DNA of 64,000 nucleotides from Dysgonamonadaceae bacterium (GTDB lineage Bacteria > Bacteroidota > Bacteroidia > Bacteroidales > Dysgonomonadaceae), in the NCBI GenBank assembly GCA_031272205.1, contig JAISUH010000090.1, forward strand, positions 1-64,000. Direction: 5' to 3'. Positions 35,415 through 60,396 of the stretch are shown piece by piece. Position 1 is the stretch's first letter. Every line of letters starts with the position of its first letter. The position numbers were made by a program, and so were the translations under genes. The notes under the pieces were generated by a model, which saw only the letters and a list, made by a program, of their open reading frames with translations, did no database searches and was not told where the DNA came from.

Positions 35415-35885
35415 TCAATATCTTCTGTTTAATATTTCCGCATACAAAACAGCTTTTCGCAATTCGCCTTGCAAGCCGTCTCCGGCTAAATCGGCAATCA
35501 ATGGATGCGAGGGGCGCGTTTCTTTCGGCGACTGTTCTCCGATGCGGTCTCCGTCGAAAGGAGAATCGTCCACATACAAAGACCCTTTCAACGACGATTG
35601 ACCCTCTATGCTTGAAGTAATTGTTGAAACCGAAGGCGCAAAATTCTTTTGTTTGGGAGCCGCTTCCGCAACGGGTACAGGCTGACGCCTCCCCTTAATT
35701 TCTTTAAGTTCCCTTGCATCCTGTATCTTTCTCACAATATCGGGTATCGTGGAAGGGAAAACCGGAGACTCAGGTGCGCCTTTGTCTTGATCTTTGGTCT
35801 GCTGTTCTTTCTTCGATTTATTAAAGAAACCCAATATCGCAACAAACAAAATAACGATGAAGTAAATTATAGTCCCTGCATCCAT
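35415..35885 (-). CDS. Hypothetical protein with N-terminal TM segment
   Basis: MDAGTIIYFIVILFVAILGFFNKSKKEQQTKD; a single TM helix followed by a disordered tail. Confidence 0.8.
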   Translation of the reverse strand: MDAGTIIYFIVILFVAILGFFNKSKKEQQTKDQDKGAPESPVFPSTIPDIVRKIQDARELKEIKGRRQPVPVAEAAPKQKNFAPSVSTITSSIEGQSSLKGSLYVDDSPFDGDRIGEQSPKETRPSHPLIADLAGDGLQGELRKAVLYAEILNRRY

Positions 35886-35891
35886 TTTTTT

Positions 35892-35923
35892 TGATTACTT
35901 TTGTGTCTCGACAAAAGTAATCA
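35892..35923. promoter_or_regulatory. Perfect 12-bp inverted repeat overlapping the -7 box (TACTTTTG) of the 35415-35885 gene
   Basis: TGATTACTTTTG-tgtctcga-CAAAAGTAATCA; both arms contain TACTTTTG or its complement. Confidence 0.8.
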
Positions 35924-35981
35924 TTTTTTGTGAATTGGAAAATAAGAATATGGAGAAATCAAGTTTTGGCAATACGGTTAT

Positions 35982-36017
35982 AAAAAAAATCGAGAGCAAC
36001 TTCACAGCTTCTCTCGA
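35982..36017 (-). terminator. Intrinsic terminator (stem TCGAGAG/CTCTCGA, T8)
   Basis: 7-bp perfect stem (35990-35996 / 36011-36017) followed on the minus strand by T8 (35982-35989). Confidence 0.75.
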
Positions 36018-36063
36018 CTACTTAACCAAAACCTTAACTATGAAAAAATTTTCATTTTTTCCT
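35982..36063 (-). ncRNA. Candidate stand-alone small RNA (~80 nt) with own promoter and intrinsic terminator
   Basis: Minus-strand sequence ...AAGGAAAAAATGAAAATTTTTTCATAGTTAAGGTTTTGGTTAAGTAGTCGAGAGAAGCTGTGAAGTTGCTCTCGATTTTTTTT; TCGAGAG/CTCTCGA stem followed by T8; promoter at 36069-36099. Confidence 0.6.
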
Positions 36064-36068
36064 TGCCA

Positions 36069-36099
36069 CAAAGATAATACGTTTTCATCGCCTACGCAA
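36069..36099 (-). promoter_or_regulatory. Promoter of the candidate sRNA: TTG-N20-TATCTTTG
   Basis: Minus strand TTG CGTAGGCGATGAAAACGTAT TATCTTTG; matches the Bacteroidetes -33/-7 pattern. Confidence 0.7.
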
Positions 36100-36171: not shown

Positions 36172-37527
36172 ATGAATATAAATACTCAACACTCGACAAA
36201 CGACAAAAAACTATTCATGGAAACTTATGGTTGTCAGATGAATGTGGCCGATTCGGAAGTCGTTGCCGCCATTATGGAGATGGATGGATACACGCTTACG
36301 GACAACGACCGCGAAGCCGACGCCATTTTTGTAAACACTTGTTCCGTCCGCGACAATGCCGAACAGCGCGTCGTGCAGCGCTTGGAATATTTCAACGCAC
36401 TAAAAAGAAAACGCAAGGGAAAGCTTGTCGTGGGAGTTTTGGGCTGTATGGCCGAACGCCTGAAATCAGACCTCATTGAAAACCACAACGTGGATTTGGT
36501 GGTAGGCCCCGACGCTTATCTCGACCTCCCCAATCTGATGGGTTTTGCCGAACAGGGAGAAAAAGCCATCAACGTGGAATTATCGAAAACCGAAACATAC
36601 AAGGACGTTATTCCCCTGAAAATCGGAGGCGTGAATATCTCCGGATTTATCTCCATCATGCGCGGGTGTGACAAGTTTTGTACCTATTGTATCGTGCCGT
36701 TCACACGGGGACGGGAACGCAGCCGCGAACCCGAAAGCATCTTAAACGAATTACGAGAGCTGCGTCGCAAAGGCTTCCGCGAGGTTACCCTGCTCGGTCA
36801 AAACGTAAATTCGTACCGCTACACCGACGGCGACAGAATGATTGACTTCCCTACCCTGCTCGAAAAAGCAGCCAATGAAGCGCCCGACATGCGCATCCGG
36901 TTCACCACATCGCATCCGAAAGACATGACGGACGAAACGCTCGAAACGATTGCTGCACACAAAAACATTTGTAACTACATCCATCTACCCGTACAAGCGG
37001 GCAGCTCGCGCATGTTGAAAATAATGAACCGCAAATACACCCGCGAATGGTATTTGGATCGCATCGCAGCCATCAAACGAATCATCCCCGACTGCGGAAT
37101 ATCGACCGATATCATGTGTGGATTTCATTCCGAAACCGAGGAAGACCATCAGGAAACACTGTCGCTGATGCGCGAAGTTGGCTTCGACTCGGCATTCATG
37201 TTCAAATATTCCGAACGGCCGGGAACCCGCGCCGCCAAGAATTTGGAAGACGACGTGCCGGAAGATGTTAAGATACGCCGACTGCAAGAAATCATCGAAT
37301 TGCAATTGGAACTTTCGCAAAAAAGCAACGAACGCGACCTCGGCAAAACCGTAGAGGCTTTGGTAGAAGGCTTTTCCAAACGTTCACGGGAACAATTTTT
37401 CGGACGGACGGATCAAAACAAAGTCATCATCTTCGATAAGAAAGGGCACAAAATAGGCGATTTGGTAAAGCTCCGCGTTACAGGATACACTGCGGCAACA
37501 TTATTCGGCGAAGAGCTGAGTGAATAA
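36172..37527 (+). CDS. miaB: tRNA-2-methylthio-N6-dimethylallyladenosine synthase MiaB
   Basis: METYGCQMNVADSEVV; radical SAM GCDKFCTYCIVPFTRGRERSR. Confidence 0.97.
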   Translation: MNINTQHSTNDKKLFMETYGCQMNVADSEVVAAIMEMDGYTLTDNDREADAIFVNTCSVRDNAEQRVVQRLEYFNALKRKRKGKLVVGVLGCMAERLKSDLIENHNVDLVVGPDAYLDLPNLMGFAEQGEKAINVELSKTETYKDVIPLKIGGVNISGFISIMRGCDKFCTYCIVPFTRGRERSREPESILNELRELRRKGFREVTLLGQNVNSYRYTDGDRMIDFPTLLEKAANEAPDMRIRFTTSHPKDMTDETLETIAAHKNICNYIHLPVQAGSSRMLKIMNRKYTREWYLDRIAAIKRIIPDCGISTDIMCGFHSETEEDHQETLSLMREVGFDSAFMFKYSERPGTRAAKNLEDDVPEDVKIRRLQEIIELQLELSQKSNERDLGKTVEALVEGFSKRSREQFFGRTDQNKVIIFDKKGHKIGDLVKLRVTGYTAATLFGEELSE

Positions 37528-60321: not shown

Positions 60322-60396
60322 CTGTGCAGCCGCGATTACAGAGAAGTTGCGTTGTAATCAAATCACAGCTCAAGTTTCAATGTTGAAATGAAACTT
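60322..60396 (-). promoter_or_regulatory. Structured intergenic leader upstream of rpsD
   Basis: Nested stems CTGTG/CACAG (60322-60326 / 60364-60368) enclosing GATTAC/GTAATC (60334-60339 / 60354-60359), plus AAGTTTCA/TGAAACTT (60372-60396). Confidence 0.45.

Follow-up and report, generated by a model that had tools for sequence, protein, structure and literature searches.

The interval between miaB and the next minus-strand gene in the genome of Dysgonamonadaceae bacterium raises two questions, namely whether it holds a small RNA (sRNA) gene of its own and, if so, what kind of regulator such a gene would encode. A sequence-only reading of the window (here, the whole stretch of 64,000 nucleotides that was analysed) had proposed a stand-alone sRNA gene with its own promoter and terminator, and had named an attenuated leader of the downstream gene as the alternative.

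Anatomy of the locus

The features on which the argument rests are the following.

36069..36099, minus strand: sigma-ABfr-type promoter, with TTG at 36099-36097, N20, and TATCTTTG at 36076-36069
35982..36063, minus strand: predicted sRNA transcript of ~82 nt, its 5' end being inferred from the promoter box
36049..36063, minus strand: A-rich 5' leader, carrying the non-conserved AUG of a 5-codon ORF
36022..36048, minus strand: near-invariant core UUUUUUCAUAGUUAAGGUUUUGGUUAA, from the similarity-selected loci, the family alignment and the FopS alignment
35982..36017, minus strand: intrinsic terminator, with the stem at 36017-35990 and then T8 at 35989-35982
36172..37527, plus strand: miaB, tRNA methylthiotransferase (Pfam Radical_SAM, UPF0004, TRAM), the divergent neighbour at most homologous loci
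35415..35885, minus strand: orf156, a short protein of unassigned function with a N-terminal hydrophobic stretch and its own TACTTTTG box, outside the sRNA gene

The promoter proposed earlier, TTG-N20-TATCTTTG, can be read directly in the sequence, and the expected transcript of about 80 nt corresponds to the ~82 nt predicted from the promoter-inferred start. Regarding the terminator, which had been described as a 7-bp stem-loop followed by T8, the T8 stands while the stem length does not: the stem consists of 7 bp, one mismatch and 4 bp with a GUGA cap, and the loop is a GNRA (GUGA) tetraloop with CU/AG closing pairs. RNAfold gives -26.6 kcal/mol for the 96 nt from 35975 to 36070 (z = -3.9, 0 of 200 shuffles as good) and -21.6 for the predicted 82-nt transcript (z = -3.1, 2 of 200 shuffles as good). 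In the predicted fold of the Dysgonamonadaceae bacterium RNA, AAAAAAUGAAAA of the leader is able to base-pair with the U-tract in the core. In the average fold, this U-tract is predicted to be mostly paired (unpaired probability 0.16-0.6). The locus combines what is looked for in a stand-alone sRNA gene, i.e., its own promoter, its own terminator and a conserved non-coding region.

An AAGGA is found at ~36064-36060 on the minus strand, followed by AUGAAAAUUUUUUCAUAG and then by the block that the earlier reading had quoted. Both this AAGGA and the 5-codon ORF MKIFS are indeed present, but they are not conserved, an in-frame AUG occurring in 6 of 135 loci (among the matches listed), and the MKIFS peptide hypothesis is ruled out on this ground. 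The broader explanation, in which the locus would encode a small protein or a peptide (MKIFS or an opposite-strand ORF) or would be a chance encounter of promoter and terminator, draws on the existence of AUG AAA AUU UUU UCA UAG in Dysgonamonadaceae bacterium; however, conservation lies on nucleotides and paired bases, the core contains stops, and Bacteroidota mRNAs would not be expected to rely on Shine-Dalgarno sites (PMC7366714). Chance is excluded because the arrangement is conserved over the order, and the probability left to this explanation as a whole is close to negligible.

Distribution, neighbourhood and selection

The impression that similar sequence exists in other Bacteroidales genomes is borne out, homologues that share the promoter, core and terminator being found across the order. 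Regarding conservation beyond the species, a DNA search of 100 relatives finds the RNA in the same family, namely in 31 of 60 Dysgonomonadaceae genomes at E < 1e-10 with one more added through synteny, and in three further Bacteroidales families. A scan with the core in one genome per species returns at least 119 stretches; among the matches listed, the Bacteroides carriers include B. fragilis, B. gallinarum and B. fluxus, and other carriers are found in Phocaeicola, Mediterranea, Parabacteroides, Porphyromonas, Barnesiella, Paludibacteraceae and Prevotellaceae records. A covariance model, at a score of at least 54 bits, detects the RNA in 32 of the 101 Bacteroidaceae genomes covered, the many-genome covariance searches having been run with strict filters under which copies may be missed. 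The genome of Dysgonamonadaceae bacterium holds a single strong copy, beside miaB, and in the sampled Dysgonomonadaceae genera g5, g6 and g14 the RNA is not found at miaB.

The same genome also holds a second RNA-like element (L191, at G000:C2:38-143) with UUUUUUCAU...GUUAAAGUUU, a GUGA-loop terminator and a T-run, which scores 38 bits with model R2 and probably belongs to the same superfamily. Outside the Bacteroidales, four RNA-like loci (L208, L212, L213 and L215) carry UUUUCAUAGUUUAGGUUUUAGG or a similar sequence with a terminator hairpin and reach 44-48 bits. These may be taken as hints of a wider Bacteroidota superfamily, and weak class-wide matches outside the Bacteroidales are excluded from membership.

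The start of miaB at 36172 on the plus strand, divergent from the sRNA gene, is confirmed from the sequence, as is the claim of a separate promoter for the gene at 35885-35415, for which a TACTTTTG box is found. No Pfam match is obtained for the conserved protein orf156, whose position between the sRNA and an acetyl-CoA hydrolase/transferase gene is conserved at Dysgonomonadaceae loci. Nearly all of the 30 Dysgonomonadaceae loci examined are flanked by divergent miaB and by orf156/acetyl-CoA hydrolase-transferase, the exceptions being one truncated on one side and one without detectable orf156. Around the orf156 promoter box, a perfect 13-bp inverted repeat, TGATTACTTTTGT-GTCTCG-ACAAAAGTAATCA at 35892-35923, is possibly an operator, and imperfect versions of it can be found in relatives. 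Among the 121 pattern-found copies (among the matches listed), 62 are divergent from miaB at a distance of 700 nt or less, a further 12 follow miaB directly on the same strand, 4 have it at some other place in the stretch, and for 43 the retrieved DNA, some of which ends at contig or tile edges, contains no miaB. The best 17 new Bacteroidaceae loci from the covariance model all adjoin miaB (17/17).

Such a persistent address raises the possibility of a role in cis, either as an attenuated leader (5' UTR) of 35415-35885 or as a regulator of the divergent miaB. The same-strand downstream gene is indeed ~100 nt away in Dysgonomonadaceae, and miaB adjacency is maintained across the order even where the RNA lies on the opposite side of miaB. 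However, the TACTTTTG promoter box of the downstream gene is located between the terminator and the gene start, the start of miaB lies outside the predicted transcript, and not all copies adjoin miaB, none being found in the retrieved DNA of the 43 given above, in part cut at contig or tile edges (e.g., L079 and L153 in the Parabacteroides species P. gordonii and P. goldsteinii). Moreover, one metagenome bin (L097) harbors a tandem duplicate ~390 bp apart upstream of miaB. The attenuated-leader alternative of the sequence-only reading is disfavoured by the separate downstream promoter, the loci with other neighbours and the duplicate, and a role in cis appears quite improbable.

Conservation within the gene was assessed in two sets of loci, one of 60 picked by similarity without the core pattern as a criterion, and one of ~135 selected on the core pattern (among the matches listed), for which promoter, stem and loop were not selection criteria. 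Because the pattern scan selected on the core, core identity is quoted from the similarity-selected set, where the 23-nt core UUUUCAUAGUUAAGGUUUUGGUU shows 96% identity over 60 loci vs ~32% in the outer flanks, the 5' leader, linker and stem reaching 53%, 52% and 45%, respectively. In the pattern-selected set (among the matches listed throughout), the TTTG promoter box occurs in 97% of the 135 distinct loci vs 16% in shuffles, the TTG-to-TTTG spacing of these loci has a single clear mode at 24 (N20 + TAnn), and a GNRA apical loop is found in 98.5% of 137 loci. The two arms of the terminator stem, for which a covariation check had been suggested, display compensatory changes at 11 of 13 pairs (29 sequences). 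Stem pairing amounts to 96% in 134 loop-aligned loci, vs 71% for randomly assigned partners and 41-61% for slid arms, so that the stem sequence varies freely while its pairing is maintained. Since terminators require a stem, this pairing points to a conserved terminator and does not imply an unusual fold. With promoter, core and covarying terminator conserved order-wide, including at loci with other neighbours and in a tandem duplicate, the claim of a stand-alone sRNA gene is strongly supported, and the existence of such a gene at 36099-35982 can be considered nearly certain.

Relationship with FopS, BTnc231 and GibS

The Rfam scan that had been recommended gives no family at the gathering threshold on the window RNA, nor on the RNA in eight 8-kb homologue-carrying records, the recurrent sub-threshold matches being those to FopS and BTnc231. 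Over 13 loci, such matches place FopS on the RNA in 8 and BTnc231 in 8. FopS (RF04319) scores 19.0 bits for the window RNA and 29-35 for Bacteroidaceae homologues, below its cut-off of 56, and BTnc231 (RF04180) scores 10-31 bits, below a cut-off of 80.4 for a 154-nt structure. GibS (RF04182) reaches 21 bits in one Bacteroides locus, the cut-off being 115, and gives no match for the window. Elsewhere in the window, at 60327-60359 on the minus strand, a S4-Bacteroidia ribosomal protein leader (RF03139) scores above the gathering threshold.

A full-text search of the literature with the core sequence found no paper. Two published RNAs considered as candidates for the same RNA are ruled out: PG_RS02100 of P. 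gingivalis (PMC6231650), which is ~429 nt long and has queG and a PLP-dependent lyase as neighbours, and SnoA/BTnc284 (PMC13370916), which lies antisense to the hcp promoter. In B. thetaiotaomicron, the homologue may already figure among the uncharacterised BTnc entries.

FopS and the new RNA have in common a size class of 65-85 nt, a sigma-ABfr promoter, an intrinsic terminator and a GUGA (GNRA-type) loop, as well as a 5' part of the form UUUUUCAU(G/A)GU ... GGUUAA, and the alignment of the new RNA to the FopS model is collinear and full-length. In contrast, the middle segment reads AGUUAAGGUUU(U/A)GGUUAA in the new RNA and GGUAUUAGAUUUAAGGUUAA in FopS; the FopS seed R1' UUUUUCAUGGUAUUAGAUUUAAGGUUAA is absent, UUUUUCAU and GGUUAA being shared while the new family has its own, different near-invariant middle. 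The new RNA is usually present as one copy fixed beside miaB, whereas FopS has 12-15 scattered copies (Bacteroides). With regards to BTnc231, the likeness concerns a start with a U-tract and CAUAG and a GUGA-loop hairpin, but the BTnc231 model spans 154 nt and carries further hairpins. GibS has a 5' seed region partly common with FopS and acts at translation initiation regions (PMC7366714), yet it is ~145 nt long, has a PM2-type promoter where the new RNA has a sigma-ABfr-type one, and is reported as conserved within Bacteroides.

Considering the full-length collinear alignment with UUUUUCAU, GGUUAA and the GUGA loop, and that FopS is the commonest Rfam match, the new RNA could be one more FopS paralogue and an ordinary member of RF04319. 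Nevertheless, its scores (19 bits in the window and 30-35 at best elsewhere) stay below the cut-off of 56, its locus is fixed and its copies mostly single, the segment between UUUUUCAU and GGUUAA is unlike that of FopS, and two true FopS genes, at 78 bits, stand alongside it in the same genome. In the reciprocal scoring, model R2 gives these two genes 28-30 bits. FopS is found in all 61 of the Dysgonomonadaceae genomes sampled (1-8 copies each), with mostly 4-8 copies in g5 and g6, where the RNA is absent, and mostly 2-4 in carriers, a difference for which genome size is a confounder. Since the FopS threshold is missed, the new RNA is not filed under FopS, and the paralogue explanation is very improbable. 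It is concluded that the RNA forms an sRNA family in its own right, inherited vertically and of the FopS/GibS/BTnc231 kind.

Proposed mode of action and meaning

In B. thetaiotaomicron, FopS and GibS repress mRNAs through pairing around the start codon, and the RRM_1 protein RbpB acts as a FopS-binding antagonist (PMC11697453, PMC7366714). The known action of FopS is the repression of susC-type mRNAs via start-codon pairing, and RbpB recognises the FopS RNAs through a motif of 41 nt located towards the 5' end (PMC11697453). A FopS-like mode of action is the best-supported model for the new RNA. The housekeeping sigma factor would transcribe ~82 nt from the TTG/TAnnTTTG promoter, and the GNRA-capped hairpin with its U-tract would terminate the transcript. 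The conserved UUUUUUCAU-AGUUAAGGUUUUGGUUAA segment would most likely serve as an imperfect multi-target seed, the 5' part of which would anneal to AUGAAA(AAA) translation starts and thereby prevent translation, as with FopS and GibS; a RbpB-type RRM protein is a possible partner. A trans-acting translational repressor is favoured because of the FopS/GibS precedent, of the shared anti-start element UUUUUUCAU (the complement of AUGAAAAAA) and of the RRM_1 protein encoded in the Dysgonamonadaceae bacterium genome. That the 5' part of the core UUUUUUCAUAGUUAAGGUUUUGGUUAA is complementary to the AUGAAAAAA start can be read from the sequence, and the core is proposed to act as a seed and/or as a protein-binding segment. 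Taken as a whole, the reading of an independently transcribed, usually single-copy trans-acting sRNA, belonging to its own family of the FopS/GibS/BTnc231 kind, spread across the Bacteroidales, and repressing translation by start-codon pairing, is held to be moderately probable.

The target searches gave no signal. The core complement (20 nt, up to 3 mismatches) occurs in the Dysgonamonadaceae bacterium genome at the sRNA itself only, and CCTTAACTATGAAAA (up to 1 mismatch) occurs in 11 genomes almost exclusively at sRNA genes. The SusC start regions of the Dysgonamonadaceae bacterium genome show no strong pairing with the sRNA and, over 322 start regions of this genome, pairing does not exceed that of shuffled seeds; target prediction drew on a sample of stretches from the genome, and the 322-region test is weak because the FopS control was equally silent there. 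These results leave room for the chief rival of the pairing model, in which the core of a stand-alone RNA would mainly bind protein (of the RRM/RbpB type or other), the RNA acting as a sponge or sequestering RNA and not by mRNA pairing. This rival is consistent with a near-invariant 23-nt core across the whole order, which exceeds the needs of a multi-target seed, and with the silent target tests; the RbpB-binding motif of FopS and the RRM_1 protein of the genome also argue for it. However, the core has in common with FopS, whose relatives pair with mRNAs, the UUUUUCAU anti-start element, and a function mainly in protein binding is judged unlikely.

With regards to its history, the new RNA looks like an old regulator common to many Bacteroidales relatives. 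It is possible, albeit doubtful, that it represents an ancestral core regulator of the Bacteroidales, a syntenic sRNA predating the split of Bacteroidaceae, Porphyromonadaceae, Tannerellaceae, Dysgonomonadaceae and Paludibacteraceae. As such, it would be the source or a sibling of the multicopy FopS, of GibS, of BTnc231 and of weaker relatives in other Bacteroidota orders, all within one superfamily of start-codon-targeting RNAs in a phylum for which neither Hfq nor ProQ is known.

To our knowledge, few Bacteroidota sRNAs have been described outside one genus, and we know of no obvious Hfq or ProQ in this phylum. The family described here is absent from the Rfam catalogue, where it would form a new family, and it is similar to RNAs for which the silencing of nutrient-uptake genes is known. 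Being usually single-copy, with a fixed genomic position and a core that hardly varies in Bacteroides fragilis, Parabacteroides, Porphyromonas and many uncultured relatives, it is a candidate for deletion and target mapping, and the question of how sRNAs act without an obvious Hfq or ProQ becomes askable across an order, beyond one species.
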